Of a stretch of 64,000 bases of DNA, positions 34,037-56,310 are shown piece by piece. Origin of the DNA: Thauera carbonicopians. Lineage in GTDB: Bacteria; Pseudomonadota; Gammaproteobacteria; Burkholderiales; Rhodocyclaceae. A model generated the notes under the pieces. It did no database searches. It was not told the DNA's origin and saw only the letters and a list, made by a program, of their open reading frames with translations. The stretch spans positions 1 to 64,000 of the forward strand of contig NZ_JANUXN010000012.1 of the NCBI RefSeq assembly GCF_025699485.1, read 5' to 3'. Within the stretch, counting starts at the first letter, position 1, and each line of letters begins with the position of its first letter. The position numbers were made by a program, and so were the translations under genes.

Positions 34037-35059
34037 TCAGTGCCCCGGCGTGATGGAAATACAGGATGTCTTGCGCAATGTCGCAGATGGCAGTTCGCCA
34101 AACAAAGCTTTGTAATAGGCGGAAAACATCCCCATGTGCCAGAATCCCCACTTACAAGCTATTCCATTTACCGAGCCCTCGGGACCCGCCATCAGCAGAT
34201 CCTTTCTCGCTCCATGAAGCCTGACGTAGCGCAAAAAGGTGACAACGTTGATGCCCAGCACGTTCATGAAGGCATGATGCAACCCCCGCCGACTCATTTT
34301 GAGCCAAGCACTCAGTTCAGTGACCGTCGGCGGACTCTGCCTGTTGGCAAGAACGTACTGTCGGGCGCGCTCGACGATTGCGCGCTGCACGAAATGGCTG
34401 CTGCGCGCCACCTCACTTTCGGCCGAGCGTGCCAACACTGCATGTAACGCAGCGCCCAAGATGGTCTCGACCATCGCCTTCATTGAGTTCTCATGCTCCA
34501 ACACTTCCGGCGTCGATACTGCTGACGATAGAACTTCCTTCAACGACATCCGCAAAGGACGGATCATTGCTTCCGGAAGCTCGCGTGTATGTGAACCAGC
34601 AATCGGCAATGGTGTATCCCGTCCAGTGGTATCGCGCGCGAAAGCGTCAAACACGTTAGAGTCGATGACCACGACCAGAATCGTCGACTTCTTCGGCGTG
34701 CGGAAATGCAGTTCCTCGTTGGGGCGCAGCAGCATTAGCGAATCACGTACCACGTGATGGCCCTGCCAGTAGCCGCCTTCCCCCATGCACACCGGCACGC
34801 CGACCGTGTAGCTGTTGCGCCGCGGATTTGCCTTTTCGTCCACGCACTGCCAAATCGTTTCGCGGAAGATTTGAATCGGCCCGATCGTCGTTTCGATGAT
34901 TTCGCCGAAAAAGCGTCCTGCCGATAGCTGCAGGTAGTCCTGCGTCCAGTCCCGAAGGCTGGCCGCATGCACACAGGGGTCGTCGGTGGGGATGACGGAA
35001 CATCGCTCGGTCGACCGGCGCGATGCCGCCTGGCCCAGGGGCAGGCCAGTGTTCATCAT
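34037..35059 (-). CDS. qhpR: AraC-family regulator of QHNDH cluster 1 (QhpR-like)
   Basis: A 340-residue AraC-type activator. The N-terminal ~200 residues are an FeaR-like effector domain (LQLSAGRFFGEIIETTIGPIQIFRETIWQCV). The C-terminal domain carries the double helix-turn-helix (VTELSAWLKMSRRGLHHAFMNVLGI...ACKWGFWHMGMFSAYYKALFGELPS). GAGGAG ten bases upstream supports the ATG at 35059. It is divergent from the ubiV/ubiU-like genes. A pair of direct repeats in the gap, found again before qhpA, probably binds this protein. Base composition is lower in GC than that of the structural qhp genes. Confidence 0.82.
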   Translation of the reverse strand: MMNTGLPLGQAASRRSTERCSVIPTDDPCVHAASLRDWTQDYLQLSAGRFFGEIIETTIGPIQIFRETIWQCVDEKANPRRNSYTVGVPVCMGEGGYWQGHHVVRDSLMLLRPNEELHFRTPKKSTILVVVIDSNVFDAFARDTTGRDTPLPIAGSHTRELPEAMIRPLRMSLKEVLSSAVSTPEVLEHENSMKAMVETILGAALHAVLARSAESEVARSSHFVQRAIVERARQYVLANRQSPPTVTELSAWLKMSRRGLHHAFMNVLGINVVTFLRYVRLHGARKDLLMAGPEGSVNGIACKWGFWHMGMFSAYYKALFGELPSATLRKTSCISITPGH

Positions 35060-35208
35060 CTGGATTCGTCTCCTCAAGCGCCGCCGCATGGATGCGGCCT
35101 CCGGTACGCACGTTCACTCGCCAGGGGGCGGTTAATTCCGCCGGCTCCGTTAAGATTAGGTTGGTAACACTGCTGTCGCAAGAGCAGGCGCCACCCCGCT
35201 TCGGCGTC

Positions 35209-35394: not shown

Positions 35395-36306
35395 GTGACT
35401 GCAACAACACCGTTCGCCAAAAATGTCGGGCCGCAAAGATTTGGAGGTGACTCACTCGAGCTTGCGGTATCGATGGTCAATCCAATGTCGCTTTCCGAAG
35501 CCGACGACTCCGCCACCAGGTATGCCTGGTGGCGGAACGCGCTGGGTGACCACGAGTTGGCCTCATGGCTCGCGAATTTCACACCCACTCATTTGTATGT
35601 CGGTAGCGAGTTCTGCGAACACCTTCTGCCCGGGCTGCGGACCTGGGAGAAAGCGATTGCCCATGCACAGACAGTGCAATGCCGCGTGTCTCTGCTCACA
35701 CCGATCGCTTCACCACAGCTCATCCGGGATCTTGGCAAGCTGCTTCCATCCCTCACGGATGGGAGCGAGGTGATTGTCAACGACTGGGGTACGGCGCATT
35801 TCATCCATGAACGTTTTCCGGCGCTCCACCTGATCGCAGGGCGACTGCTATGCCGCATGATGAAGGATCCACGGCTTGACCTGGCCGCCCAAACCGCCGC
35901 ATTCAGATTCGATCCGCGTCCCTTGCGGGCGATATTCGCCCGACTGGGTATTCGTCGCATGGAAATCGATGTGCCACTCTCTTCCGATGTCGACACTTTT
36001 TTCACATTACCGCTACCGGCTGGTGTCCATGTTCCATTTGCCTGCGTTGCCAAGGGAAGAATGTGCCGGATCGGGTCGAGTTCGATTCGTGGTCCGGAAC
36101 GGTTCGCTGTCGGGCGCAAATGCAGGAAAGAATGTCTGAAAGTCAGCGCCCAACTCGAACGGCCCGGCTTCCGCGACACACGAGATGTATATCAGATCGG
36201 TAACTCCATCATCAGCAAGCATTCGGCAACGATGTTCGAGGTCGTGAGAAACGCAATCGAGCGAGGTTTCATCAGTCGGATCGTCGTGCCGGGAGAGCCG
36301 ATATGA
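35395..36306 (+). CDS. U32-family UbiV-like Fe-S protein, cluster 1
   Basis: A 303-residue protein of peptidase family U32 that resembles UbiV, which with UbiU hydroxylates the ubiquinone ring without O2. Four cysteines match a UbiV-type [4Fe-4S] site: Cys74 (SEFCEHL), Cys224 (GRMC), and Cys243/Cys247 (RKCRKEC, the CX3C pair). The start is taken as GTG at 35395, five bases after GGGGGAG; longer frames run into the regulatory region. It overlaps the UbiU-like gene by four bases (ATGA). Another copy of this pair accompanies QHNDH cluster 2. Hence the role is probably linked to amine dehydrogenase maturation rather than to ubiquinone. Confidence 0.8.
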   Translation: MTATTPFAKNVGPQRFGGDSLELAVSMVNPMSLSEADDSATRYAWWRNALGDHELASWLANFTPTHLYVGSEFCEHLLPGLRTWEKAIAHAQTVQCRVSLLTPIASPQLIRDLGKLLPSLTDGSEVIVNDWGTAHFIHERFPALHLIAGRLLCRMMKDPRLDLAAQTAAFRFDPRPLRAIFARLGIRRMEIDVPLSSDVDTFFTLPLPAGVHVPFACVAKGRMCRIGSSSIRGPERFAVGRKCRKECLKVSAQLERPGFRDTRDVYQIGNSIISKHSATMFEVVRNAIERGFISRIVVPGEPI

Positions 36307-37307
36307 AGATCGTCGCACCCATTGCCAGCGTGGAGGAGGCTGAAGCACTGGCACGTGCCGGGGCCCGGGAATTCTATTGCGGCTTCGCCCCGGATGAATG
36401 GATCGGCAGGTTCCGTGCAGTGAGTACCAACCGGCGGCCATCAGGCAATTTCCGTGATCGTGCCGAACTCCATCGCGCGGTCGACGTCGTTCATCGACAC
36501 CGGGGTTCGATCTCTCTGGTCTTGAATGCGCAGACCTATACTGACGAACAGATCGCCGCCACCATCACGATCGCCGAGTTTTTTCTGGGCATCGGGGGAG
36601 ACTCACTAATCGTTTCCGACCTCGGGCTGGTCGGCGAATTGTTCCAGCACGTGCCGCTGTCGCGCATCCACGTCAGCTCCGTGGCAACCTGTCGCAACGG
36701 CAGTGCTGCCCGGCTTTGCAAGGAACTGGGCGCGTCACGGATGATCCTGCCGCGCGACGTGACGGTGGGCGAGGCCTGCGAAATCGCCACCGAAGTGCCA
36801 GGTATCGAAATCGAAGCTTTCATCCTCAACGATGGCTGCGTATTCGAAGAAGGCGCCTGCGCCACGCTCCATCTACCGCAGAGCCTGGGCGGCCCGATCT
36901 GCTTGGATAATCATACCGCTCACTATAGGCGGCGTGGCAGCGGGACGCTGGACGGCCCTGCCCTCGACAAGCTTCGGGACAATGACGAGGAATACCGGAA
37001 ATGGCTCTGGTATCGCTTCTCCTGCGGATTCACGACGAATGCGGAGGGGATGCCCTTTGGTCCCTGCGGGCTGTGTGCGTTGCCTAGCCTGCTAAGAGGC
37101 GGAATCGCTGCCGTGAAGATCGCCGGCAGGGAGGCCCCCACAGCCAGGAAGCTTGCCAGCGTGCGCATGGTCAGAGCAGTTCTCGACCGGATCGAGGCGG
37201 GCGAAGACGATGAACACATCATGCAGTTTGCGCAGGCATTGAGACCCTCCGAGGAGCACTGCCGAACGGGATACATGTGCTACTACCCAGAGGTACTCGG
37301 GCATTAG
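36303..37307 (+). CDS. U32-family UbiU-like Fe-S protein, cluster 1
   Basis: A 334-residue U32-family protein. Cys179 and Cys186 in NDGCVFEEGAC have the same CX6C spacing as the UbiU cluster ligands, with Cys200 (GGPIC) and the pair Cys255/Cys258 (GPCGLC) as further ligands. U32 proteins such as UbiU, RlhA and TrhP carry out prephenate-dependent, O2-independent hydroxylations. It is coupled to the UbiV-like gene by a four-base overlap and followed by an aldehyde dehydrogenase gene. Hydroxylation of the QhpC tryptophan is a hypothesis; another aromatic substrate is possible. Confidence 0.8.
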   Translation: MKIVAPIASVEEAEALARAGAREFYCGFAPDEWIGRFRAVSTNRRPSGNFRDRAELHRAVDVVHRHRGSISLVLNAQTYTDEQIAATITIAEFFLGIGGDSLIVSDLGLVGELFQHVPLSRIHVSSVATCRNGSAARLCKELGASRMILPRDVTVGEACEIATEVPGIEIEAFILNDGCVFEEGACATLHLPQSLGGPICLDNHTAHYRRRGSGTLDGPALDKLRDNDEEYRKWLWYRFSCGFTTNAEGMPFGPCGLCALPSLLRGGIAAVKIAGREAPTARKLASVRMVRAVLDRIEAGEDDEHIMQFAQALRPSEEHCRTGYMCYYPEVLGH

Positions 37308-37416: not shown

Positions 37417-38937
<1,521 letters not shown>

Positions 38938-39304: not shown

Positions 39305-40924
39305 ATGGAGAAAGTACACGGGAGAAAACCCCGCATGCTCGCGCTGGCCGCGAGCCTGGCGGTACCGCTTCTCACCCCCCCGGCACAGGCCGCGACGCAG
39401 GGCGAAACCCTGGTCAACAGCAAGTGCATCACCTGCCACGCGCCGGCCGAAGACGGGCAACTGGCCCGCATCGGCGACAGCCGCCGTACCCCCGAAGGCT
39501 GGGACATGACGGTGGCGCGGATGATCATCAGCCACGGCGTGAAGCTGAGCGCCGACGAGCGCGCCGCGGTCGTCAAGTACCTGGCCGACACGCGCGGCCT
39601 GGCGCCCGAGGAGACCGACAGCTACCGCTATCTGATCGAGCGCGACTTCAACCGGGTCGAGCGCGTGCAGGGCGAAGCCCAGCTAGCCTTCGACACGTGT
39701 GCGCGCTGCCACTCCTATGGTCGCATCGCGCTGCAGCGCCGCACTGAGTCCGACTGGGCCAAGCTGCCCCACTACCACGTGGGCCAGTACCCGGTGATCG
39801 AGATCCAGGCCGGCGGCCGCGACCGCAACTGGTGGGAGCTGGCGACGACGCAGGTGCCGGCAATTCTCGGCAAGCTGTACCCCAACGACAGCGGCGCCTG
39901 GCAGCAGTGGCAGCAGCGCGAGCGGGTCAGCGCCGCCGGCACCTGGCGCTTCGCCGGCCACCGCCCCGGCCGCGGCGCCTATGAAGGCGTGGCGACGATC
40001 GAGGCCGACCGCGCCGGCACCGACCGCTACAAGGTGAAGTTCCAGTTCGACTATGCCGACGGCCAGCGCGAGACCGCTGAAGGCGAAGCCATCGTCTACA
40101 CAGGCTACGAATGGCGCGCTTCCGTCAAGCAGGGCAGCATGGACGTGCGGCAGGTGTTCACGCTGTCGCCCGACGGCCAGACGCTGTCCGGCCGCTGGTA
40201 CGAGAACGGCATCGACGCGATCGGCGGCCGCCTGCTCGCCGCCCGCAGCGGCAAAGGCTCGGCCGAGCGCCTGCTGGCGGTCGAGCCGACCCACATCAAG
40301 GCCGGCACGACCCAGCACGTCACTCTCTACGGCAACGGCCTGTCGGGCGACGTGAATCTGGGCGACGGCATCACGGTCGCCAGGGTGGTCGAGCGCTCCG
40401 CCGGCAAGGTGGTGGTCGAAGCGCGGGCCGACGGTGCGGGCAAGGACGGCGTGCGCGCCGCCGCGGTCGGCAACGCCCGGCTGCAGCAGGGGCTCGCGCT
40501 CTACCGGAACGTCGATTACGTGGCTGTCGAACCGGAGCAGGCGATGGCCGTGGTCGGCGGCGGCAAGGGTCCGCTGCCGAAAGTGCCGGTCCAGTTCGAG
40601 AGCGTGGGCTACGCCTTCGGCCCCGACGGCAAGCAGGGCACGGCCGACGACATCCGCTTGGGCTATTTTCCCGCCACCTGGTCGATGATCAACGCCAACG
40701 CCTTCGCCGAAGAGATGCAGGACACGGCCTATGCCGGCACCCTGCGTGCGGACGGCCTGTTCATCCCCGGCGATGCCGGCCCCAACCCCAAGCGCCGGTT
40801 CGGCACCAACAATGCCGGCGAACTGGCGGTGACGGCGACCGTGGATGACGCCGGACGCAAGCTCAGCGCCAGCAAGCACCTGATCGTGACCCTGCAGCGC
40901 TGGAACGATCCGCCGCTGCGCTGA
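39305..40924 (+). CDS. qhpA: Quinohemoprotein amine dehydrogenase alpha subunit (diheme), cluster 1
   Basis: A 539-residue periplasmic subunit. A signal peptide (basic start, hydrophobic core, cleavage near AQA) precedes a diheme cytochrome c domain with CITCH (41-45) and CARCH (132-136), followed by the beta-rich domains typical of the family. The haems pass electrons from the CTQ cofactor of the gamma subunit to an external cytochrome or azurin. AAGGAGAC upstream supports the ATG. First gene of the cluster 1 structural operon qhpA-qhpD-qhpC-qhpB-ccmF-like. Confidence 0.93.
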   Translation: MEKVHGRKPRMLALAASLAVPLLTPPAQAATQGETLVNSKCITCHAPAEDGQLARIGDSRRTPEGWDMTVARMIISHGVKLSADERAAVVKYLADTRGLAPEETDSYRYLIERDFNRVERVQGEAQLAFDTCARCHSYGRIALQRRTESDWAKLPHYHVGQYPVIEIQAGGRDRNWWELATTQVPAILGKLYPNDSGAWQQWQQRERVSAAGTWRFAGHRPGRGAYEGVATIEADRAGTDRYKVKFQFDYADGQRETAEGEAIVYTGYEWRASVKQGSMDVRQVFTLSPDGQTLSGRWYENGIDAIGGRLLAARSGKGSAERLLAVEPTHIKAGTTQHVTLYGNGLSGDVNLGDGITVARVVERSAGKVVVEARADGAGKDGVRAAAVGNARLQQGLALYRNVDYVAVEPEQAMAVVGGGKGPLPKVPVQFESVGYAFGPDGKQGTADDIRLGYFPATWSMINANAFAEEMQDTAYAGTLRADGLFIPGDAGPNPKRRFGTNNAGELAVTATVDDAGRKLSASKHLIVTLQRWNDPPLR

Positions 40925-40946: not shown

Positions 40947-42380
40947 ATGACCACCTTGTTCGTCAACCGCCACAGCTTCCACGACGTGAAGCTGCCCGAG
41001 CGGCGGATGCTGTTCCACATCCCGTCCAGCGGCCTGTTCGAGCTGGACGAGGTGGGCGGCTCGCTGCTCGACTTCCTGAAGGAAAACGATCGCGTCTCGC
41101 TGGATGGCGTGCGCGAGCGCTTCGACGGCCGTGTCACGGCCTCCGACCTGGCACAGACCTTCGAAAACTTCCGCGAGCTGTCGATCCTGTGCGACGCCCC
41201 CGCCGGGCCCGACTTGGGCCTGCGCACGGAGATTCGTTCCTTTCCGATCAGCACCGTGGTGCTGAACGTCAACACCGGCTGCAACCTGAGCTGTACCTAT
41301 TGCTACAAGGAGGATCTGGACGTCCCGTCCAAGGGACGCCGAATGAACTTCGACACCGCCCGCAAGAGCATCGAACTGCTGCTCGCCGAGGGTGCCGTCC
41401 ACGACCGTATCAACGTCATCTTCTTCGGTGGCGAGCCGCTGACCAACCTGGCGCTGATCGAGCAAGTGGTGGACTACACCGAACGGCGCTGCGCCGAGGA
41501 AGGCAAGCACGTCGATTTCTCGATGACCACCAACGCCACGCTGCTGACCGAGGAGATCGTCGACTACCTCGACCGCCACCGCTTCGGCCTGTCGATCAGC
41601 ATGGACGGCCCCGAGGCGGTGCACAACCGCCGCCGGCTCACCGTCGGCGGCAAGGGCACCTACTCGGTGGTGGCCTCCAAGGCGCGGATGCTGCTGGCGC
41701 GCTACCGCTCCAAGCCGGTCGGCGTGCGCGTGACGATGACTGCGGGCTACACCGACGTGTCCGCCATCCACCAGCACCTGAAGGGCGAGCTGGGCTTCTT
41801 CGAGGTGGGGTTCGCGCCCGCCACCTCGGGGCCGCTGACGGCGTTCAACCTCGACGCGGACGAGTTGCAGGCGGTCTTCGACGGCATGAAGGCGCTCGGC
41901 CGCGCCTACCGCGACGCGGCGCTGCGCGGGGAGAACAACGGCTTCTCCAACATGCACCAACTGATGAGCGATCTGTACGAGGGACGCAAGAAGGCGCTGC
42001 CCTGCGGCGCCGGCGTCGGCCTGCTGGCGGTGGACCACCAGGGCGACCTGAATCTGTGCCACCGCTTCACCGGCTCGGACATGCCGCGCTTCGGCAACGT
42101 CGGCGAAGGCATCGCCAAGGAGGCGCTGGGCGCCTTCCTGGAGAAGGCCACCGACCGCGCCGGCAAGGGCTGCGCCACCTGCCGCATCCGCAACCTGTGC
42201 GCCGGCGGCTGCTACCACGAGTCCTACGCCCACTTCGGCGACCCCTTGTCGCCGACCTACCACTACTGCGACCTGATGCGCGACTGGGTGGACTTCGGCA
42301 TCGAGATCTACACCGAGATTCTGGTCAAGAACCCGGGCTTTTTCAGACAACACCTGAGCACGAGGAGTATCCAGCTATGA
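40947..42380 (+). CDS. qhpD: Radical SAM maturase QhpD, cluster 1
   Basis: A 477-residue radical SAM/SPASM enzyme. The SAM-cluster cysteines are Cys112, Cys116 and Cys119 (CNLSCTYC). The C-terminal auxiliary-cluster cysteines are in [14 protein letters not shown] and YHYC. QhpD binds the QhpC precursor in the cytoplasm and forms its three intrapeptide Cys-to-Asp/Glu thioether bridges. The N-terminal ~90 residues resemble a peptide-recognition domain. AAGGAG precedes the start. It overlaps qhpC by four bases. Confidence 0.94.
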
Positions 42381-42700
42381 AGCACATGAAAGCGATGAAC
42401 GCGAAGGCCCACCAGGTCGAGGTGGCGATCGGCAAGGGCGGGGGCGAGGCCGAGGAAGTGATGGCGATGCAGACCGTCGTCGGCTGCGCCACGACCTTCG
42501 ACCCGGGCTGGGAAGTCGACGCCTTCCTCGGCGTCGCCGGCTTGTGCCAGCCGATGGAGGCCGACCTCTACGGCTGCGCCGACCCCTGCTGGTGGCCCGC
42601 GCAGGTGCCCGACACCCTGCACAACTACACCGACTGGGCCGCCGGCAAGGATGCCGCCGTGCAGGACTGGACCAAGCTGCAGTCGGTCTACCCCAAGTAG
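42377..42700 (+). CDS. qhpC: Amine dehydrogenase gamma subunit precursor (CTQ), cluster 1
   Basis: A 107-residue precursor with a ~30-residue leader and a mature core carrying every residue of the known QHNDH gamma subunit. Thioether pairs would be Cys37-Glu46, Cys57-Asp63 and Cys71-Asp79, and the CTQ cofactor Cys67-Trp73. The active-site aspartates (Asp42 and Asp63) are also kept. The spacing is identical to the Paracoccus/Pseudomonas proteins (7/16, 27/33, 41/49, 37/43). The leader is removed by QhpE after cross-linking and export. ATGA overlap with qhpD couples it to its maturase. Confidence 0.95.
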
Positions 42701-42731
42701 GACCCGGTCGACGAATCCCGCCAATGCATTA

Positions 42732-42756
42732 GGCGCGGCGGCGCCGCCGCCGCGCC
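42732..42756 (+). repeat. Strong hairpin between qhpC and qhpB
   Basis: Perfect 12-base arms (GGCGCGGCGGCG and CGCCGCCGCGCC) with a one-base centre make a near-continuous palindrome 31 bases after qhpC and just before the qhpB ribosome-binding site. No T-run follows. It could protect the short qhpC message from 3' decay or lower qhpB translation, setting subunit ratios. Cluster 2 has no counterpart at this junction. Confidence 0.5.
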
Positions 42757-42770
42757 AGGAGACTCCCACA

Positions 42771-43883
42771 ATGAAAAACAAGCAGCAATCCACCCTGCGC
42801 AAGGCATTCGCGCTCGGCATCGTCGGCCTCGGCATGAGCCTGCTCAGCCAGGCCAGCCTGGCCGCCAAGGACTATCTCGTCACCGCGGTGCGCCCCAACA
42901 AGCTGGTCGTCGTCGATGCCCAGGCGCGCCAGGTGGTCAAGACCCACGAGATCCCCAACACTGCGCCGGGCAACAGCGTCGCCGGCATCGCGGTGTCGCG
43001 GGACGGCAAGGTCGCCTACGCCATCCACAACCGCTGGGAAAGCGTGTCCGGCATCGACCTGGAAACCGGCAAGGAGGTCTTCCGCGCCGAGCTGTCCTCG
43101 CCCGACATCCGCGCCAAGGCGCATTTCGCCATCGACGTCAGCCCGGACGGCAAGGAACTGGCGGTGTACGTCAATCCGACCCGCCTGAAGCCGGGCGAAT
43201 ACGAGGTGCTGGACCCTTACATCGCCATCTACGATACCGCCGCCGGCATCCATGCCCAGCCGGTGCGCAAGCTGCCCGCCCCCCGCCGGGCCACCACGCT
43301 GGCCTATTCGCCCGACTACAAGCGCCTGTATACCTTCACCTGGGACATGCTGGTGCTCGATCCGAAGACCGGCGAGCAGATCGGCTCGCACCCGTGGAAG
43401 AGCTGGAAGCGCGAAGGCTACGGCGAACCGGACTCGCTGTCGGTGTCGCCGCAGTTCGAGCAGACCAACGAGTTCGCCACGCCCTACTTCATCCAGCACA
43501 AGGACAAGGACGGCAAGGAGTCGCTGCGGGCCGGCATCTGGGCGCTGGACATCGAGAAGGACACCGTGCGCTTCTCCGAATTCGAGGACGCGACGGTGAT
43601 GTTCTTCTCCACCGCCATCAACCCGGTGCGCCGCAACGAAGCCTACACGGTGTACACCCAGCTCACCAAGACCGACCTCGACACCAACACGCTGCTCAAG
43701 CGGGTGGACCTCGACCACACCTTCTACACCGTCAACGTGTCGTCCGACGGCAAGGAGCTGTACATCGGCGGCACCATCAACGAGATCGCCGTCCATGACA
43801 GCGACACGCTGGAGAAGAAGGGCACCATCATCGTCGGCCGCGGCGACCAGGTGCTCAGCTCGATGCGCCTGGTGCGCCGCTGA
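42771..43883 (+). CDS. qhpB: Amine dehydrogenase beta subunit (beta-propeller), cluster 1
   Basis: A 370-residue periplasmic protein. An N-terminal signal peptide ending near SLAAK precedes a seven-bladed beta-propeller (repeating blocks such as VVVDAQARQVV, GIDLETGKEVF, LVLDPKTGEQI, IAVHDSDTLEKKG). It packs against the gamma subunit and helps form the substrate pocket. CCAGGAGA supports the ATG at 42771; the longer frame overlaps qhpC. Confidence 0.92.
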   Translation: MKNKQQSTLRKAFALGIVGLGMSLLSQASLAAKDYLVTAVRPNKLVVVDAQARQVVKTHEIPNTAPGNSVAGIAVSRDGKVAYAIHNRWESVSGIDLETGKEVFRAELSSPDIRAKAHFAIDVSPDGKELAVYVNPTRLKPGEYEVLDPYIAIYDTAAGIHAQPVRKLPAPRRATTLAYSPDYKRLYTFTWDMLVLDPKTGEQIGSHPWKSWKREGYGEPDSLSVSPQFEQTNEFATPYFIQHKDKDGKESLRAGIWALDIEKDTVRFSEFEDATVMFFSTAINPVRRNEAYTVYTQLTKTDLDTNTLLKRVDLDHTFYTVNVSSDGKELYIGGTINEIAVHDSDTLEKKGTIIVGRGDQVLSSMRLVRR

Positions 43884-43918
43884 AGCCGGCCGGCGCCATG
43901 CAAGCCCATGCCGCACAT

Positions 43919-43941
43919 GGCGCCGCGCCGGGCGCGGCGCC
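43919..43941 (+). repeat. Hairpin between qhpB and the ccmF-like gene
   Basis: GGCGCCGCGC-CGG-GCGCGGCGCC is a perfect 10-bp stem with a 3-base loop, 35 bases after qhpB and ahead of the CGGAG ribosome-binding site of the next gene. No T-run follows. It is probably an mRNA-processing or stability element that lowers expression of the membrane protein relative to the structural subunits. Confidence 0.5.
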
Positions 43942-43958
43942 CCTTCCGGAGCCAAGCC

Positions 43959-46145
43959 ATGCATGAACACCGAACGGACGCCCGCCCGGCGGTCTGGCTC
44001 GTCCTGCCGGCCGCCGCGCTGTCGTGCGCCGCGCTGCCCGCCGCCGGCAACCTGGCGGTGCTGGGCGCCGGCCTTTGCGCGCTTGCCGCCGGCCTGCGGC
44101 CAATCGGCCGCTCGGCCTGGGCACGGGCCGCGGCGGCGCTGCTGTGGGGCGCACTGCTCGGGCTAGCCCTGCTATTGCTCGGCGACCGTTTCGAGGTGCG
44201 CTACGTCTGGCTGTACAGCGGCGCCGAACTGCCGCCGCACCTGAAGCTGGGCAACCTGTGGGGCGGCGACGAAGGCACGACGCTGCTGCTGGCGGCCTTC
44301 TGCGCCAGCCTCGCGGCACGCGGCCGCAGTCAGTCCGTGCGCGTCGATGCCACAGCGCTCATTGCCGCCGCCATCGCGCTGCTCGCCGCCTGGCTGAGGC
44401 CGTTCTCCGCCACGCCCGCCGAGCTGCTGGCGCAGGCGGCGTCTCAGGGCATGAACGCCCACCTGATGAAGATCTGGATGCTGCTGCATGCACCGCTGGT
44501 GCTGGCGGCCTACGCGTGGATACTGGCGCTTGCCGCGCCGGCCCTGGCCGCGCTTGGCGGCCACGCCGCGCAGTGGCCGCACGATGCGCAGATGTGCGCG
44601 CGCCGCGCCTGGATGCTGCTCACCGGCGGCATCGGCTTCGGCATGGTGTGGGCCTTCGAGGATGCGATGTATGGCCTGGTCTGGCACTGGGACCCGGTGC
44701 AGACGGCGGTCTTCGCTGTCTGGTGCCTGCTCGGCGCCCACCTGCACGGCATCCCCGGCTGGCGGGCGGGACGGCCGGCGTGGCGCTGGATGCCGGCCAC
44801 CGCGCTATGCGCGGCCGCGCTCACCCTGGTCGCCATGGGTGTGACGCGGTATGAGGCGCTTGCCAGTTCGCACCGCTACGTCGGCGCGGCCAGCGCGCCG
44901 GTGTACTTCGCCCTCGCCGCGCTGCTCGCCGCCGCCGGCGCGGCAATGGGATGGCGCGGGTGGCGCGGGCGCACCCGCGTCGCGCCTGCGCCGCTGCGCC
45001 AGGGCTTCGCCGCGTGGGGGCTGCGCCTCACCCAGTATGCCTTCGCCTTCATTGCGGCCGCCTCCGCAGGACATCTCGCCTGGGCCTTCCTTGCCAGCGC
45101 CCAGGAACTGCCGCGGCCGGACGACCTGAAGCCCTTTTTCGCCACGCTGGCCAACTGGGCGCACGGCAGCGAGCTGCCGGCACTGAGGGCGGCCTTCTCG
45201 CAGTGGGACGTGAACGGCTACGCGCTGGCACGGGCGGCGCTGTATCCGCTGATCCTCATCGGCCTGCTCGGCGGCTGGTTCTTCATGCGCCGCCTGTCGC
45301 CGCGGCTGGGCTGGACGTCGCTGGCGCTGGCGGCGCTCGCCTGCGGCGGCGTCTGGCTCGAAGGCGGCCTGCTGACACGCGAATACACCGGCACCGGGGT
45401 GCTGTCGCAGCGGATCGTCGCGGTACTGCCGCGCATCGACGCCAGCCTCGCGGCGGGCGCCTACCTGGCCCTGGCAGCGAGCGCCTGGAGCATCCGAACG
45501 GCGGCGAGGACGGCCGCCGGAGGCCATGCCCTCGCCGTCGGGCTGGTGCATGTGGGATCGATGCTCGCGCTGTGGGGAGCCCTGCTGTCGACGGCCCTCA
45601 ACGGCTACTCGCAGCACGTGGTCGCCCTGTCGGACGACTGGCGGCACGACCATCACGGCTACGCCTTCCGCGTCACCGGCGTCGATGTCGAGCGCACGGC
45701 CGACGGTGGCCGCGCGGACGGCGACGCAGGCTTTCGCGCCTTCGCCCGCATCGAGTTGCTGACGCCGTCGCAGCGCCTGGCCAGCGGCCAGACCCTGTAC
45801 CGCGACGGCCGCAGCGCCGTCGAAGGCTACGACGGCCCGATGCGCGAGATCTGCGAGATTCTCGACTACCGCTACGCGCGCTACGCCGATTCGCCGGGAT
45901 ACGTGCTGCACCCCTTCATTGAGCGCGGCTGGGCGCGTGACGTACAACTGTGGGTCTCCCCCGCCGCCGCCGTGGCCGCGCTCGAAGGCGGTCCACAAAC
46001 GCCGCAGGCGACGGTGGTGCTGCGCTACTTCCCGTTCATCTCGCTGCTCTGGCTCGGCCTGATGCTGACTGCGGCGGGCGCGCTGTGGCTCGCATTCGCG
46101 CCGCAACGTGCCCGCCGGGGAAAGTCCGTACAAAGCCGCACGTAG
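43959..46145 (+). CDS. CcmF/CcsA-superfamily haem-handling membrane protein, cluster 1
   Basis: A 728-residue polytopic inner-membrane protein of the cytochrome c assembly family. CcmF-like marks are visible: WGGDEGTTLLLAAF (compare WGxxEGSLLLW), the conserved His in HLMKIWMLLHAPLV, a WWD-type motif VWHWDPVQTAVF, and SSHRYVG. A periplasmic domain precedes the last helix. CcmF is the haem lyase of System I. A copy inside each QHNDH operon suggests a dedicated lyase for the diheme alpha subunit, comparable to NrfE for NrfA, though the alpha-subunit motifs are ordinary CXXCH. Some other haem or quinol role is possible. Confidence 0.82.
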   Translation: MHEHRTDARPAVWLVLPAAALSCAALPAAGNLAVLGAGLCALAAGLRPIGRSAWARAAAALLWGALLGLALLLLGDRFEVRYVWLYSGAELPPHLKLGNLWGGDEGTTLLLAAFCASLAARGRSQSVRVDATALIAAAIALLAAWLRPFSATPAELLAQAASQGMNAHLMKIWMLLHAPLVLAAYAWILALAAPALAALGGHAAQWPHDAQMCARRAWMLLTGGIGFGMVWAFEDAMYGLVWHWDPVQTAVFAVWCLLGAHLHGIPGWRAGRPAWRWMPATALCAAALTLVAMGVTRYEALASSHRYVGAASAPVYFALAALLAAAGAAMGWRGWRGRTRVAPAPLRQGFAAWGLRLTQYAFAFIAAASAGHLAWAFLASAQELPRPDDLKPFFATLANWAHGSELPALRAAFSQWDVNGYALARAALYPLILIGLLGGWFFMRRLSPRLGWTSLALAALACGGVWLEGGLLTREYTGTGVLSQRIVAVLPRIDASLAAGAYLALAASAWSIRTAARTAAGGHALAVGLVHVGSMLALWGALLSTALNGYSQHVVALSDDWRHDHHGYAFRVTGVDVERTADGGRADGDAGFRAFARIELLTPSQRLASGQTLYRDGRSAVEGYDGPMREICEILDYRYARYADSPGYVLHPFIERGWARDVQLWVSPAAAVAALEGGPQTPQATVVLRYFPFISLLWLGLMLTAAGALWLAFAPQRARRGKSVQSRT

Positions 46146-47098: not shown

Positions 47099-47546
47099 CT
47101 CCCCAGGCGCGGCGCCCGCCTGCGTGGCCCGTCCCGCAAAATCGGCCGCCGCAGCCTGGAAGCGCTTCGCCAGTCCACGGCCGCCGTCCCTCCTGGCCTT
47201 TGATGTGTATCCAGGTGGGTGAGCGTCCATGGCTCGCGGCTTAGTGCCAGCCGGTCGTTGCGCTGATGTCAGCGATGAGTTTATCTATTGTTTAGAAACC
47301 GGTTGACATGCATGCTGACCCCCTCACGCGCTTCGGAAAGCACCACGATGAGTCTGCTTCACCCTATATCGATAGTCACCGAATTAACCTGGAGTTTGGG
47401 TGGTGAGAAGGGTGCAAGGACCTGCAAGTGCTCGCCAGCCTCTCCTCGGGCTTGACCTTGGTGATTTGGTTAATCGGAGAGATGGAACGGGTCAAGGCAG
47501 TCCGCCGGTCGCGAGGATGGGTCATGCAACTGCTGGAGGGTGTTCC
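47099..47546. other. Non-coding gap before qhpF
   Basis: No gene is seen in this 448-base stretch. It contains CGCTGA-TG-TCAGCG (47261-47274), a perfect 6+2+6 inverted repeat that could be an operator. An AT-rich run (about 47278-47300) follows, with a TTGACA -35-like hexamer at 47304-47309 but no good -10 at the usual spacing. The gap probably holds the promoter of the qhpF-qhpE-qhpG operon, which would let these shared genes be controlled separately from cluster 1. Confidence 0.4.
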
Positions 47547-49295
47547 GTGCTGAGCCGCCTGGTCCATAGCGAGCGGCCGGACGAACTGCGCCGCGGTCTG
47601 CGCTGGCTGTACGGCTTCGTGCGGCCGCAGCGGCGTGCGATCGCCGGGCTGCTGTCCCTTTCGCTGTGCGCCACCCTGCTGGTGCTGCTGCAGCCGTGGC
47701 TGACCAAGATGCTGATCGACGACGGCCTGATCGCGCGCGATTACCCGACCCTGGTGGCGGTCGCCTGCGGCATGATCCTGGCCGGCATCACCGGCACCGT
47801 GCTGGCGGGCGTCAACCGGCAGCTGCATACGCGCCTGTCCGGCCGCATCCTGTTCGCGCTGCGCAGCGATCTCTACCGCCACCTGCAGACCCTGTCGCCG
47901 GCTTTTTACGGCCGCCAGCGCATGGGCGACCTGATGTCGCGGCTCGACGGCGACGTGGCGGAGATCCAGCGCTTCGCCGTCGACAGCCTGTTCGCCGCGG
48001 TCAGCAGCGTCATCGGCCTGGTCGGCGCGCTGGTGCTGATGCTGAGCCTGTCCTGGCAGTTGTCGCTGCTGGTGCTGGTATTGGTGCCGCTCGAGGCGGC
48101 CTGGTTGCGCTGGATGCGGCGCAAGGTGGAAGCGCGCACGCGCACGGTGCGTGAGCGCGCAGCGGACGTGTCGAGCTTCCTGGTCGAGACGCTGCCGGCG
48201 ATGAAGTTCATCCAGGCCTCGCGGCGCGAAGCCGACGAGCGCGCGCGGCTCGACCGCCTGGGCGAGCGCTACCTCGGCGACCTGCTGCGGCTGCAGCGCA
48301 CCGAGTTCTTCACCCAGGCCGTGCCATCGACGCTGACCTCGCTGACGCGTGCCGCGGCTTTCCTGATCGGCGGCTGGTGGGTGATCGAAGGCAGCTGGCA
48401 GCTCGGCGCCCTGATTGCGTTCTCCACCTACCTGGGCATGGCGACCGGCCCGGTCAACAGCCTGCTTGGGCTGTACGTCGCCATCCAGCGCATGAGCGTG
48501 AGCCTGATGCGGGTCAGCGAGCTGCGCGAGGCGCCGGCCGAGGTCGTCGACGAGGGCGATGAAGGCGCCGCCGAGTCGCGGCCCGCCGTGCAGCCGGCGC
48601 CGCGTTCATGGCACGGCGCGATCGAATTCGACGAGGTGGTGTTCCGCCATGCGGAACGGCCCGACGCGGTGCTCGACGGCGCCAGCCTGTCGATCCCGGC
48701 CGGCGCGAAAGTGGCGCTGACCGGCGCCTCGGGCGCCGGCAAATCGACGCTGATCGACCTGCTGCATCGGCACTACGATCCGGGTGCAGGCGCGATCCGG
48801 CTCGACGGCACCGATCTGCGCCGGATCGGGCTTGGTGAATTGCGGCGCGCGGTGGCGGTGGTCAGCCAGGACATCGTGCTGTTCCGCGGCACCCTCGCCG
48901 ACAACATCCGCTACGCCGCGCCGCAGGCCGACGATGCGGCGGTGCGCGAGGCTGCGCAGCGGGCGCGGCTGGACGAACTCGTCGAACGCCTGCCGCAGGG
49001 GCTGGACACGCCGCTGGGCGAGCGTGGCCAGCAGCTTTCCGGCGGCCAGCGCCAGCGCATCGCGATCGCTCGCGCGCTGCTGCAGCAGCCCTGCGTGCTG
49101 GTGCTCGACGAAGCCACGTCGGCCGTGGATGAGGCGACCGAGGCCGGCATCATCGCCGAGGTGGATGCGCTGTTCGCCGGCCGTACCCGCATCCTCATCA
49201 GCCATCGCCCGGCGACGCTGGCCGGCTGCGATCTGCGAGTGTGCTTGCAGGCAGGGCGATTGAGCGTGCTGCCGGACAGTGGAGAGGCCGTCTAG
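47547..49295 (+). CDS. qhpF: ABC transporter QhpF (peptide exporter)
   Basis: A 582-residue half-transporter with six N-terminal transmembrane helices fused to an ATPase: Walker A (GASGAGKS, 393-400), signature LSGGQRQ (497-503), and Walker B ending Asp521-Glu522 (CVLVLDEATS). In the known qhp system this protein exports the cross-linked gamma subunit to the periplasm. The start is placed at GTG 47547, six bases after GGAGGG. An ATG at 47517 or the frame from 47400 is possible but lacks the family N-terminus. Only one copy serves both clusters. Confidence 0.85.
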   Translation: MLSRLVHSERPDELRRGLRWLYGFVRPQRRAIAGLLSLSLCATLLVLLQPWLTKMLIDDGLIARDYPTLVAVACGMILAGITGTVLAGVNRQLHTRLSGRILFALRSDLYRHLQTLSPAFYGRQRMGDLMSRLDGDVAEIQRFAVDSLFAAVSSVIGLVGALVLMLSLSWQLSLLVLVLVPLEAAWLRWMRRKVEARTRTVRERAADVSSFLVETLPAMKFIQASRREADERARLDRLGERYLGDLLRLQRTEFFTQAVPSTLTSLTRAAAFLIGGWWVIEGSWQLGALIAFSTYLGMATGPVNSLLGLYVAIQRMSVSLMRVSELREAPAEVVDEGDEGAAESRPAVQPAPRSWHGAIEFDEVVFRHAERPDAVLDGASLSIPAGAKVALTGASGAGKSTLIDLLHRHYDPGAGAIRLDGTDLRRIGLGELRRAVAVVSQDIVLFRGTLADNIRYAAPQADDAAVREAAQRARLDELVERLPQGLDTPLGERGQQLSGGQRQRIAIARALLQQPCVLVLDEATSAVDEATEAGIIAEVDALFAGRTRILISHRPATLAGCDLRVCLQAGRLSVLPDSGEAV

Positions 49296-50003
49296 ATGAG
49301 CGCGCGGATACGCATCGGGGTGGTCGATAGCGGACATGCGGCCGCGCAGGTGCCGCACGTAGCCGCATCCGCCGCCTTCGTGCTCGACGGCGGCGAACTG
49401 CGCTGCATGCCTGCAGAAGTGGACAAGCTCGGGCACGGCAGCCGCGTCGCTGAAGCTTTGCTGCATTGTCTGCCGCAGGCCGAACTGCTGGTCGCTCAGG
49501 TGTTCCGCGACCGCCTGGCGACGTCTGCCGCACAGGTGGCGGCGGCGATCGACTGGCTGGTGGACAAGGATGCGCTGCTGATCAACCTGAGCCTGGGCCT
49601 GCGCGAGCCGCGGCCGGTGCTGGCGGCCGCCTGCGCGCGTGCGCTGGCGGCGGGCGTGGTGCTGTGCGCGTCGGCGCCGGCGCGCGGCCAGCCGGTCTAT
49701 CCATCCGGTTTCCCCGGCGTGCTGCGGGTGACGGGCGATGCGCGCTGTGCCGCAGCCGGCGAGATCGCCGCGCTCGGCGCCGCACATGCCGATTACGGCG
49801 CCTGCGTGCGGCCGCTGGACGGCAGCCTGGAAGGTGCAGGGGCCAGCATGGCCTGTGCCTGGCTCAGCGGCATGGCCGCAAGCCATCTGGCGGCCGGTGG
49901 CAGCGCGGCCTCGCTGTCCGGCTGGCTGGCGGCACAGGCGCGCTACCACGGGGTGGAAGATCTGGAGAGCCTGAAACGGGAGAAGCTGAGACATGGCCGC
50001 TGA
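49296..50003 (+). CDS. qhpE: Subtilisin-like leader peptidase QhpE
   Basis: A 235-residue, minimal S8-family serine protease with the catalytic triad Asp11 (VVDSGH), His47 (GHGSRV) and Ser184 (GAGASMA). It has no signal peptide or propeptide. QhpE cleaves the leader from the cross-linked QhpC in the cytoplasm. It starts directly after the qhpF stop and overlaps qhpG by 11 bases, so the three are co-translated. It is shorter than typical subtilisins, as expected for this dedicated enzyme. Confidence 0.88.
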   Translation: MSARIRIGVVDSGHAAAQVPHVAASAAFVLDGGELRCMPAEVDKLGHGSRVAEALLHCLPQAELLVAQVFRDRLATSAAQVAAAIDWLVDKDALLINLSLGLREPRPVLAAACARALAAGVVLCASAPARGQPVYPSGFPGVLRVTGDARCAAAGEIAALGAAHADYGACVRPLDGSLEGAGASMACAWLSGMAASHLAAGGSAASLSGWLAAQARYHGVEDLESLKREKLRHGR

Positions 50004-51321
50004 CGGAATCGTCGTGATTGGCGCCGGGCCGGCGGGTGCGGCGGCGGCAATCGGGCTGGCGCGCATGGGCGAGCCGGTCACGCTGGTGGGCGAACCGCGC
50101 CGTTTCGCTGCGGTGGAAGGCGTGTCGGCGCGTGTGCTCGGAGCCTTGCGCGGGCTGGGGCTGGAGCAGGCCATGGGCGCGTTCGCGCCGCCGTCGCCGC
50201 GCCGCGCGCAGTGGAACGGCACGCTGTCCGAGGCCAATCAGGAGAGCCTCGTCGATCGCCAGCTTTTCGACCGCGGCGTGCTGGACGACCTCGAGCGCCT
50301 GGGCGTGAGGGTGGTGCGCGGCCACGTCGCCGAAGTCGTCTCCGCGCCGGGCCGCCACGAGATCCGGGTCGAGACGGCAGGCGGCATGCGGACCTTGTCG
50401 GCGGATTTCATCGTCGAGGCCCGCGGCCGCGCGGCGCCGGGCGGCGGGCTGCCGCGCGTGCGCGGCGCCGAAACGGTGTCGCTGCTGCAGTACTGGCAGG
50501 GGCCACCCGGCAGTGCGCACTCGGCGGTGCAGAGCTGCGAGGACGGCTGGGCATGGATGGCGGCGCTGGCCGATGGCCGGCGCTACCTGCAACTGACACT
50601 GGACGTGCGCAGTGCCGCGCTGCCGCCGAAAAAGGCGCTGGCTGGCTATTGCGCCGCGCGCCTGCGCGGCATCGATGCCGCCGCGCCTTTCCTGCGGGAT
50701 GCCGAGCCGGTTGGCGAGCCCCATGCGCGAACCAGTACGCCGGTGCTCAACGAAGTGCTGGCCGGCGACGACTGGATTCGCGTCGGCGATGCGGCGATGG
50801 CGGTCGATCCCCTGTCGGGCAACGGCATCTTCCAGGCCTTGTCGTCGGCGCTGCAGGCGCCGGCGGTGGTGGCGACGCTGCGCCACGACCCCGCGCGCGC
50901 GGCCCTGGCGCGCCGCTTCCACCAGCAGCGCATCGAGCACCTGTTCTATCGTTTTGCCCGCATCGGGCGTGATTTCTACGCCCAGGAAACGGGCTGGACG
51001 CAAGAACCGTTCTGGGCGGCGCGGCGGGACTGGCCCGATCGGGCACCGCTGCACGCCGAGGTCAAGCCCGGTATGGCGGTGGCTGCACGCCGGCCAGTGG
51101 TCCGCGATGGCAGGATCGTCGAGGAGGAGGTGGTCGTCACGCCCGACCAGCCGCTGGGCGTGTGGCATCTGGATGGCGTGCCGCTGGCGCCCTTGCTGAA
51201 GGCAGTGCAGGCGGCGCCGGGCAGGCCGGCCGAAGCGGTATTGCAGGCGATGGAGGGCCTGGATGCTGATGTTGCGGTGCGAATCGCCGCCTGGATGCGA
51301 GCTCAGGGGTGGATTTGCTGA
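49993..51321 (+). CDS. qhpG: FAD-dependent monooxygenase QhpG
   Basis: A 442-residue flavoprotein monooxygenase. The FAD motif GAGPAG (10-15) and the second FAD motif GDAAMAVDPLSGNG (from Gly265) are present. QhpG is known to dihydroxylate the tryptophan of cross-linked QhpC with O2 before CTQ forms. The C-terminal ~100 residues form an extra domain. It overlaps qhpE by 11 bases and is convergent with the second AraC-type gene. There is one QhpG for two gamma subunits, while each cluster has its own U32 pair. Confidence 0.88.
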   Translation: MAADGIVVIGAGPAGAAAAIGLARMGEPVTLVGEPRRFAAVEGVSARVLGALRGLGLEQAMGAFAPPSPRRAQWNGTLSEANQESLVDRQLFDRGVLDDLERLGVRVVRGHVAEVVSAPGRHEIRVETAGGMRTLSADFIVEARGRAAPGGGLPRVRGAETVSLLQYWQGPPGSAHSAVQSCEDGWAWMAALADGRRYLQLTLDVRSAALPPKKALAGYCAARLRGIDAAAPFLRDAEPVGEPHARTSTPVLNEVLAGDDWIRVGDAAMAVDPLSGNGIFQALSSALQAPAVVATLRHDPARAALARRFHQQRIEHLFYRFARIGRDFYAQETGWTQEPFWAARRDWPDRAPLHAEVKPGMAVAARRPVVRDGRIVEEEVVVTPDQPLGVWHLDGVPLAPLLKAVQAAPGRPAEAVLQAMEGLDADVAVRIAAWMRAQGWIC

Positions 51322-51368: not shown

Positions 51369-52388
51369 TTAGCTGCCGCGGCGCAGGGTTTCCGACGGTA
51401 GCTCGCCGAACATGGCCTTGTATTCGGCCGAAAAGTGCGACAGGTGCCAGAATCCCCAGCATGCCGCGATGTCGGCGACGGTGGCGCGTTCGCTGCCGCC
51501 GGCCTGCTTCAGGGCGCGGCGCACGGCATTGAGGCGGATCGCGCGCAGGAATTTCACCGGGTTCAGGTCGAGCACGTCCTGGAAGCTGTATTGCAGGGTG
51601 CGGCGCGAGACGCCGAGTTCGGTGCATAGGTCGGCGACGCTGATCGGCTCGTCGATGTGCGTTTCCATGTATTCGCGTGCTCGCGCGACGATGAGTTGGC
51701 GGGTTCTACAGGATGGCGCCAGGATAGCCGGCGCGGGGGGCAGCGTGCCGAGCAGGGTGGCGAACAGCGCCTGCTCCATCGCCGCGCGCATCTGCGGGTG
51801 GCGCAGCAGGTCCGGGGTGGCGCGCAGGCTGGCCATCATGGTCGCCAGCAGGCTGCCGAAAGCTTCCATCTGCTGGGGGCTGGCGGGGATGAGCGTATGC
51901 CCGGCAAGCTCTGCTTCGAGGTCGCGGTGCTCCACCTGCAGTGCATAGGTGTTGAGCGCGGCCGCGTCTGCCGTACAGGCGAGGATTTCGAGCCGGCGCG
52001 GCGTGCGGAAGTCGAGTTCGTCGCCGTCGCCGAGCGTCAGCATCGAGTGCCGGGAATAGGTCTCGCCGCAAAACCAGCCCGTGCCGTCGATGATCGTCGG
52101 CACCGCCACGGTGCGCGAGCCCGGCCAGGCGATGCCGGCCTGGTGCACGGACTGGTTGAGCGTTTCCCGGAACAGCTGCACCTTGCCGAAGCAGAACTCC
52201 TCGAATTCCCCGGCGAAGAGGCCGGCGCTGAGCTGGTCGTACTGCTGCTGCCAGTTGCTCAGGCAGGCGGCATGCTCGTCGGCGTCCAGCGTGTCGCGCA
52301 GCGTGTAGGAGAAAGGGGCCGTGGTGCCGGGAGCAGCGGTGCCTGCGATCGGGCCGCCCGCATCCATAGGCTTGGCGACCGCGCTCAT
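51369..52388 (-). CDS. qhpR: AraC-family regulator of QHNDH cluster 2 (QhpR-like)
   Basis: A 339-residue AraC-type regulator related to the one at 34037-35059. Its FeaR-like effector domain includes QLSAGLFAGEFEEFCFGKVQLFRETLNQSVHQ. The C-terminal helix-turn-helix pair (VADLCTELGVSRRTLQYSFQDVLDLNP...AACWGFWHLSHFSAEYKAMFGELPSE) shares GFWH...FSxxYKAxFGELPS with the paralogue. The ATG at 52388 is preferred to the longer frame. It is divergent from qhpA of cluster 2 and convergent with qhpG. Confidence 0.83.
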   Translation of the reverse strand: MSAVAKPMDAGGPIAGTAAPGTTAPFSYTLRDTLDADEHAACLSNWQQQYDQLSAGLFAGEFEEFCFGKVQLFRETLNQSVHQAGIAWPGSRTVAVPTIIDGTGWFCGETYSRHSMLTLGDGDELDFRTPRRLEILACTADAAALNTYALQVEHRDLEAELAGHTLIPASPQQMEAFGSLLATMMASLRATPDLLRHPQMRAAMEQALFATLLGTLPPAPAILAPSCRTRQLIVARAREYMETHIDEPISVADLCTELGVSRRTLQYSFQDVLDLNPVKFLRAIRLNAVRRALKQAGGSERATVADIAACWGFWHLSHFSAEYKAMFGELPSETLRRGS

Positions 52389-52511
52389 TGCCCTCGCCTT
52401 TCGGGCGTGTGCAGCGTGGCGAACATGTCTCGTCCTCACTCGATCGATGGGCGATCGTTCTTGTCGTTATGCGCCCCTGGCTGCGGGGCGTAAGGACGGG
52501 CGCGATTCATC

Positions 52512-52594
52512 GCTTGCCCGTCTTTCAGGCCAGCATGGCACGCGGGGGCCGCTTGTGCAAGCCGGTAGCGTGCCGGTGGCTTGCCGTTTTCGGC
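52512..52594 (+). promoter_or_regulatory. Putative operator repeats upstream of qhpA, cluster 2
   Basis: GCTTGCCCGTCTTTCAGGC (52512-52530) and GCTTGCCGTTTTCGGC (52579-52594) form an imperfect direct repeat, 67 bases apart. The second, extended to TTGCCGTTTTCGGCTA, matches 12 of 16 positions of the cluster 1 repeat TGGCCGTTTCCCGATA. No clear -10 is found at the cluster 1 spacing. The rest of 52389-52880 has no gene that I can see; a CGCCCC/GGGGCG hairpin lies at 52472-52490. Confidence 0.42.
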
Positions 52595-52880
52595 TAACGC
52601 CGATCGCCTTGCATTTGTCCAGCCTCCGCGTGACTCCGGCAGCGACCGGGGCAGGCGGGTGGTAGATGTCGATGTTGCGCAGGCCCTCGCAGAAGGGCTG
52701 GAGGCCGGCCCCGTGCCGCGCCCCGGTGGAGAAAGGAGATGCAGGATCGGCTCGCCCGCCGCGAGCCGGCCGGTGTTTGTCCTCGGCCCGCGCAGCGTTG
52801 CGGTGTCCTTCGTATGGCGAACGGCCTGGCCGCGCTGCCGGAGGATGCTTCATCCACGGGTACCAAGAGGAGATCCGGTC

Positions 52881-54470: not shown

Positions 54471-54546
54471 GCGGCCGCGTGCCGTGTTCCGCGTCCCGGC
54501 GGGCGATGTCCCGCCGCCCACGATCCCGATGATTGAGGAGGCTCCG

Positions 54547-55977: not shown

Positions 55978-56300
55978 AACATCTGAAGGCAATCAACAAC
56001 AAGGCGAAGCTGCTGGAGCAGGCCGTCGGCGAGGACCGCGTCGAGGAAGTGGTGGCGATGAGTGCGATCGCCGGCTGCACGGCGACGGTGGACCCCGGCT
56101 GGGAAGTCGACGCCTTCGGCGGCGTGGCCTCGCTGTGCCAGCCGATGGAGTCCGACCTCTACGGCTGCGCCGACCCCTGCTGGTGGCCCGCCCAGGTGCC
56201 GGACACGATGATCACCTATCCGGACTGGAACAAGGATGCGGCCAACACCCGCGAAGACTGGCGCAACCTCGGCTCGGTGTTCCCGGGCGACAAGCTGTAA
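55974..56300 (+). CDS. qhpC: Amine dehydrogenase gamma subunit precursor (CTQ), cluster 2
   Basis: A 108-residue precursor with a ~28-residue leader. Cross-link partners are Cys35-Glu44, Cys55-Asp61 and Cys69-Asp77, with CTQ at Cys65-Trp71, spaced exactly as in the known gamma subunit. The leader begins [12 protein letters not shown], similar to [12 protein letters not shown] in cluster 1, pointing to a shared recognition element for QhpD, QhpE or QhpF. It starts inside the qhpD stop (ATGA). Confidence 0.95.
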
Positions 56301-56310
56301 GGGGGCAGAC

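Follow-up and report, generated by a model that had tools for sequence, protein, structure and literature searches.

How could a bacterium that oxidises amines with a quinohemoprotein amine dehydrogenase (QHNDH) obtain the cysteine tryptophylquinone (CTQ) of that enzyme when air is absent? The question is raised by a 64,000-nucleotide stretch of Thauera carbonicopians DNA (contig NZ_JANUXN010000012.1, positions 1 to 64,000, hereafter the window), which holds two QHNDH (qhp) gene clusters and, in each of them, a pair of genes related to the U32 proteins UbiU and UbiV. Schmitt et al. (2019) reportedly found that the breakdown of amines by a denitrifying bacterium without air begins with QHNDHs, and that CTQ maturation does not depend on O2; Aromatoleum aromaticum EbN1 is reported to form QHNDH anaerobically. 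For the tryptophan hydroxylation that this use would involve, no explanation was found in the literature searched, and the U32 pair is a specific candidate. Passages of PMC7876137 state that O2 is the source of both oxygen atoms inserted by the flavoprotein QhpG and describe all qhp genes as necessary. From its distribution among genomes we consider it likely that the U32 pair is an O2-independent, iron-sulphur (Fe-S)-dependent dihydroxylase of the QhpC tryptophan and the anoxic counterpart of QhpG.

We named the V-like and U-like members of each pair QhpV and QhpU. A sequence-only reading of this DNA had described two overlapping U32 pairs, one per QHNDH cluster, and the analysis confirmed them at 35395-37307 and 60520-62396, all four genes being on the forward strand. 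QhpV-1 (35395..36306, GTG start), the UbiV-like partner, shares a four-base ATGA overlap with the U32 protein QhpU-1 (36303..37307, ATG start), and the V-like QhpV-2 (60520..61386) a four-base GTGA overlap with QhpU-2 (61383..62396, GTG start). The reading frames are open and under purifying selection, with ratios of nonsynonymous to synonymous substitution (dN/dS) of 0.10-0.28 in six comparisons with Thauera relatives. QhpU-1 and QhpU-2 matched Peptidase_U32 (PF01136) in Pfam with 129 and 132 bits, for a gathering cut-off of 22.4. QhpV-1 and QhpV-2 matched no Pfam or NCBIfam model, and QhpV is linked to U32 by its cluster ligands and by matches in profile and in fold that are both weak.

The cluster ligands are given in passages of PMC6747719 as C39, C180, C193 and C197 for UbiV and as C169, C176, C193 and C232 for UbiU. 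In QhpV exactly four cysteines, a C...C...CX3C set (C74, C224, C243 and C247 in QhpV-1), were invariant in 28 of 28 aligned rows. In a profile alignment they fell on the four UbiV ligands and followed the UbiV pattern CXnCX12CX3C, with a longer spacer before CX3C than in UbiV. Seven cysteines of QhpU were invariant in 33 of 33 rows: CX6C and one more correspond to the first three UbiU ligands, and C255, C258, C320 and C326 have no cysteine counterpart in two aligned UbiU sequences. At the position nearest the fourth UbiU ligand (CX6CX16CX38C) a cysteine was present in 26 of the 33 rows and an asparagine in the others, so that, as a correction to the earlier reading, strict conservation of a fourth UbiU ligand is lacking in QhpU. 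QhpU may use another fourth ligand or bind a second cluster.

The position of the pair within the U32 family was then examined. Six proteins of the window's genome matched PF01136, including both QhpU proteins and one that exceeded the UbiU cut-off and has a UbiV neighbour; two further ones were read as TrhP and RlhA from their tree placement with the E. coli proteins. Against the UbiU model NF047963 the QhpU proteins reached 76.9 and 81.4 bits, below its cut-off of 440, and they were 24-25% identical to UbiU, with a profile match at E 3e-25. In a 74-row U32 tree the 33 QhpU rows formed one side of a branch (94/91), and QhpU together with four distant relatives made up a set (100/98) apart from UbiU (two rows), TrhP and RlhA. 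Another split (100/99), with long branches, set the QhpV rows, joined by one distant relative, apart from two UbiV rows. Thus QhpU did not group with UbiU, nor QhpV with UbiV, although the deeper joins of the tree are unsure because several long branches meet there. The predicted QhpU structure (predicted local distance difference test, pLDDT, 83.7; predicted template modelling score, pTM, 0.83) had the U32 protein 5d88 as its top fold match in the PDB (E 5.8e-7), followed by other barrels; for the QhpV model (pLDDT 84.9, pTM 0.85) 5d88 came second (E 3e-4), among unrelated barrels. As judged by sequence comparison, QhpU and QhpV are a separate U32 group and not UbiU/UbiV. The sequence-only reading had named clustering of the pair with true UbiU/UbiV as part of what would count against it; the scores of 77-81 bits against 440, the separate tree placement and the genome's own UbiU all point the other way, and its term UbiU/UbiV-like remains apt for the architecture but not for the subfamily.

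A scan of the genome collection with both U-like proteins of the window gave 50 loci in 49 genomes, Thauera butanivorans being found twice. When five genomes with distant U-like proteins of 29-40% identity (L050-L054) were set aside, QhpD exceeded its cut-off in 42 of the remaining 44; the other two are metagenome-assembled genomes whose U32 contigs are shorter than 6 kb. QhpD over the cut-off was present in 10 of 397 genomes sampled across the phylum, the window's included. Within the family, QhpU (E up to 1e-60) was found in 33 of 295 genomes, again including the window's, and 32 of these were among the 48 with QhpD. In the 33rd (G644) a divergent QhpD-like gene lies 2.4 kb away; its match (335 bits) had an E value of 3.6e-100, just past the limit of the QhpD search. 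This gene and the U32 genes belong to a divergent qhp cluster whose QhpC is of the CTQ type. QhpU was not found in the remaining 246 family genomes, at most seven first-look candidates being scored in each. A chance neighbourhood of the pair and the qhp genes was ruled out by this co-occurrence with QhpD across samples. A plasmid search with QhpU-1 returned no match.

Related pairs were seen at more distant loci. L050 and L132 are divergent QHNDH clusters (QhpD 314 and 336 bits, below the cut-off). Each has an in-line U32 pair and a QhpC of the CTQ type, and no QhpG was found in either stretch. L052, from a delta-proteobacterial metagenome-assembled genome, and L054, from a Lachnospiraceae genome, carry related U32 pairs beside radical S-adenosylmethionine (SAM) genes, with no QhpD over the cut-off; their U-like proteins share the extra cysteine regions of QhpU, whole or in part.

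We surveyed 59 QhpD-matching genomes besides the window's, drawn from the phylum (10), family (47) and class (2) samples and not chosen for U32; one of them (G422) was included although its QhpD lies below the cut-off. QhpG exceeded its cut-off in 36 of the 59 (24 candidates scored per genome), and QhpU was found at 486-568 bits in 32, the other matches listed reaching at most 98 bits except for one of 129 in G588. This survey of co-occurrence with, or replacement of, QhpG had been proposed in the sequence-only reading, and it yielded QhpU in 22 of 23 QhpG-less genomes versus 10 of 36 QhpG-bearing ones (Fisher p 1.3e-7, a value uncorrected for kinship among the genomes and weakened by it). Three of the 22 QhpG-less carriers are single-contig genomes (G564, G650 and G673). 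Among 64 QhpD operons, with genes counted up to about 9 kb away and inside the stretches fetched, QhpG stood without the pair in 23 and the pair without QhpG in 21; 4 operons had both and 16 had neither. In the set of 49 genomes found through U32, which was chosen for that family and overlaps the survey, QhpG over the cut-off was absent from 34, or from 29 of 44 once the five distant genomes are set aside. G030, counted among the 34, carries two fragments on separate contigs (139 and 124 bits), which may be parts of a split QhpG. Three Aromatoleum-type genomes (L071, L072 and L073) carry a qhpG, 67% identical to the window's, as the sole qhp gene found in the fetched stretch, and their qhp operon lies elsewhere with a U32 pair. 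G532 has two QhpD genes, one in a cluster with QhpG and a divergent pair and the other in a cluster with the pair only. Markers of anaerobic life were enriched with the pair: true UbiU was present in 32 of 32 QhpU genomes versus 19 of 27 without QhpU (p 0.001), and NosZ, matches below the cut-off counted, in 29 of 32 versus 13 of 27 (p 0.0005), both p-values being uncorrected for kinship.

The arrangement of the genes gave a further indication. The V-U pair stands directly after qhpE in 22 of the 50 U32 loci; among 72 QhpD-survey loci, qhpE and qhpG are adjacent in 11 (overlapping in L086 and L087), and in 13 more a CcmF-like gene intervenes. Two closed, QhpG-less genomes of the Aromatoleum type (L060 and L061) show the order A-D-B-F-E-V-U in the searched qhp gene set, with qhpC confirmed in place. 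QhpC keeps the CTQ cysteine and tryptophan in a CxxxCWWP motif in all of 44 qhpD loci, the window being counted as one of them; in this set L021 and L068 are the same contig, fetched two times, and L080-L131 were left out. The positions of three other QhpC cross-links, at the residue numbers that we take to be theirs, are kept in the same 44 loci. Since QhpC keeps both the motif and the cross-link positions, CTQ is presumably still made without QhpG; the cross-links are those set out in passages of PMC7876137. As the QhpG step needs O2, all qhp genes are described as necessary and the CTQ residues are kept, the candidate left for the missing step is, by elimination, the pair.

Fe-S hydroxylases that work without O2 occur among the U32 proteins according to passages of PMC6747719 and PMC11574389, and in ubiquinone synthesis by U32 proteins the oxygen is prephenate-derived, direct evidence for the prephenate reaction still lacking according to passages of PMC11574389. 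By analogy, the pair probably performs an O2-independent hydroxylation with prephenate-derived oxygen. QhpV and QhpU would form a heterodimer carrying Fe-S clusters, which would act on QhpC after cross-linking by QhpD and hydroxylate the CTQ-precursor tryptophan twice with no use of O2, the oxygen donor probably being prephenate as for UbiU/UbiV; oxidation and bonding to the nearby cysteine would then give CTQ. Because the window holds both qhpG and the pairs, CTQ could be formed in its organism whether O2 is available or not, and the retention of both systems in some genomes would be expected if QhpG serves in the presence of O2 and the pair in its absence. The inference of the sequence-only reading, that the pair could form CTQ under anoxia, is supported by these findings, and it is the best of the explanations considered. 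The new U32 group would probably also bring a new class of substrate. A wider proposal, which we put forward tentatively and hold to be less likely than not, is that QhpU/QhpV are the founding members of a new U32 class. Its enzymes, encoded beside radical SAM maturases, would hydroxylate side chains of proteins or peptides, and the four added cysteines would form an extra Fe-S site; CTQ would be one product, and the pairs of L052 and L054 would act on other peptides.

Several observations weigh against a dihydroxylase replacing QhpG. Ten QhpD genomes carry both QhpG and QhpU, and one (G713, a 680-contig draft) carries neither; the absence of QhpG was judged from no more than 24-28 first-look candidates in each genome. 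Of seven independent pairs on well-supported branches of the QhpD tree, an average of 2.8 had U32 and QhpG changing in opposite directions, 0.5 had them changing together and 3.6 showed no difference, and the median p of 0.625 was not significant though the direction was as expected, the sample being too small to decide. Twelve genomes have NosZ and QhpG without a full-length QhpU, so that denitrifiers can do without the pair. The homology of QhpV to UbiV is weak (26%, E 7e-4, profile alignment), the ligand set of QhpU differs from that of UbiU, and the QhpU profile matches no PDB chain by sequence. No general Fnr box was found upstream of the V genes when the best site of each of 47 loci was compared with 200 shuffles, although at L014, L016, L018 and L051 at most 3 of the 200 shuffles matched it.

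Other functions for the pair were weighed against the same data. It could modify something else in amine use, such as the amine, the aldehyde or acid, or the quinone acceptor, its link with qhp then reflecting anaerobic amine catabolism in general. Both pairs of the window adjoin an aldehyde dehydrogenase and anaerobic markers are enriched in QhpU genomes, as would be expected, but such a role leaves unexplained both the tendency of QhpG to be missing where the pair is present and the position of the pair after qhpE. For the pairs of L010 (second copy L102), L021, L022 and L025, which stand at qhp genes, the fetched stretch contains nothing related to either aldehyde dehydrogenase of the window, and the divergent qhp lineage of L050 and L132 also carries the pair; we regard this role as unlikely. 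It appears quite unlikely as well that the pair acts elsewhere in QhpC maturation, as a chaperone, an electron donor, in an extra modification or in the oxidation of dihydroxy-tryptophan to the quinone, with another enzyme hydroxylating the tryptophan in QhpG-less strains. Mono-oxygenase relatives below the QhpG cut-off do exist, at 170-181 bits over about 300 positions (about 1-305) in eight survey genomes; they look like a paralogue, however, because seven of the eight also have QhpG over the cut-off and G527 alone does not. A mono-oxygenase would itself need O2, and the closed QhpG-less genomes L060 and L061 show their qhp gene set with the V-U pair in place and qhpC present.

Remote homology and common cluster ligands might suggest that the pair is a duplicated UbiU/UbiV for anaerobic ubiquinone synthesis. 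This is very improbable in view of the true UbiU that exceeds the NCBIfam cut-off in all 32 QhpU survey genomes and in the window's genome, of the low identity and separate grouping of QhpU, and of its occurrence in the family sample only with QhpD or a QhpD-like gene. The identification of the pair itself as true UbiU/UbiV was ruled out by the model scores, the tree placement and the separate true UbiU of the genome. A plain peptidase was also rejected: the protease of the system, qhpE, itself stands beside the pair in the 22 loci mentioned above, and passages of PMC6747719 show UbiU and UbiV, and suggest other four-cysteine U32 proteins, to be Fe-S proteins.

The clusters around the pairs contain qhpA, D, C and B twice, with a single qhpF-E-G between them; qhpA, B, C, D, E, F and G were thus all found in the window, qhpF by exporter family and position only, and one qhpG was seen for the two clusters. 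Genes are on the forward strand unless stated. Cluster 1 begins with an AraC-family regulator (34037..35089, reverse strand; Pfam HTH_18) divergent from pair 1. After V1 and U1 come an aldehyde dehydrogenase of the ExaC type (37417..38937; NF050026, 957 bits, cut-off 900), qhpA-1 for the QHNDH alpha subunit (39305..40924; TIGR03908, 663 bits), qhpD-1 for the radical SAM maturase (40947..42380; TIGR03906, 738 bits), qhpC-1 for the gamma subunit with the CTQ motif CADPCWW (42377..42700, coordinates deduced from its stop, at 42700, and from its ATGA overlap with qhpD-1) and qhpB-1 for the beta subunit (42651..43883; TIGR03907, 434 bits), whose true start is probably inside. A CcmF/NrfE-like haem lyase-type protein follows (43908..46145; Cytochrom_C_asm, NrfE matches below the cut-off), then a porin, the ATP-binding cassette (ABC) exporter qhpF (47400..49295, assigned by position and by ABC exporter families, those listed all below their cut-offs), the subtilisin-like protease qhpE (49296..50003; NF049966, 264 bits) and qhpG, the O2-dependent flavoprotein dihydroxylase (49993..51321; NF049967, 552 bits, cut-off 240). 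Cluster 2 starts with another AraC-family regulator, QhpR-like by position (51369..52439, reverse strand), followed by qhpA-2 (52581..54470; TIGR03908, 705 bits), qhpD-2 (54484..55977; TIGR03906, 748 bits), qhpC-2 (55974..56300; CADPCWW, coordinates worked out as for qhpC-1), qhpB-2 (56236..57456; TIGR03907, 484 bits, true start probably inside), a porin-like gene, an aldehyde dehydrogenase resembling phenylacetaldehyde dehydrogenase (58930..60432; NF045735, 720 bits, below the cut-off of 850), V2 and U2. A second CcmF/NrfE-like homologue (57%) lies directly after pair 2, from 62527 to at least 63870; the two CcmF/NrfE-like proteins are possibly a haem lyase for the dihaem QhpA subunit.

The G+C content at third codon positions (GC3) was 0.62-0.71 for pair 1 and its regulator (34037-37307; 0.69 for the regulator), versus 0.81-0.93 for the 17 further cluster genes that were measured, among them those of pair 2. 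The block was therefore probably acquired apart from the rest. The genome G588 is closely related to the window's. Its place of pair 1 (L137, G588:C140, 2871-5183) has the regulator (92%) and no V-like gene; between this regulator and the start of the aldehyde dehydrogenase lies a U-like frame that is divergent and shortened (46% identity over 277 aligned codons). It was counted as QhpU absent, G588 having QhpG, and may show decay of the pair. The window contains 15 Fnr-like sites with at most two mismatches, against 7.3 expected, and none of 100 shuffles reached 15. None of the 15 is just upstream of a pair; one site with a single mismatch (47200-47213) lies about 190 bases upstream of the qhpF frame. 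No Rfam match and, in a tRNA scan, no tRNA was found in the window.

Compared with known systems, the pair resembles UbiU/UbiV in its adjacent genes of U32 type, in the deduced O2-independent aromatic hydroxylation and in the cysteines aligned with four of four UbiV ligands (QhpV) and three of four UbiU ligands (QhpU). It differs from them in the 24-25% identity of QhpU, the lack of a family-model match for QhpV, the separate clades, the four extra invariant QhpU cysteines, the KIEGR motif of UbiU, which is mostly KIAGR in QhpU, and in its tie to qhp and a deduced substrate that is a protein tryptophan. With QhpG it would share the reaction and the place in the pathway, and it shares the place after qhpE in many loci; it belongs, however, to another protein family, QhpG using flavin adenine dinucleotide (FAD) and O2 and the pair presumably Fe-S and an organic oxygen donor. 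RlhA and TrhP, of which the window's genome holds its own by tree placement, likewise belong to U32, have a CX6C core and hydroxylate without O2, as deduced for QhpU, but unlike the pair they are single proteins acting on RNA bases.

A literature search, with most subscription journals outside it, found among the papers listed none joining U32, UbiU or UbiV with quinohemoproteins or tryptophylquinone. If the proposed function is true, a U32 enzyme would hydroxylate a protein side chain without O2, and this small enzyme class would be extended from lipids and RNA to proteins. It would explain how some bacteria use an amine-oxidising enzyme without air, and genome sequence would predict which bacteria use amines by the QHNDH route under these conditions.

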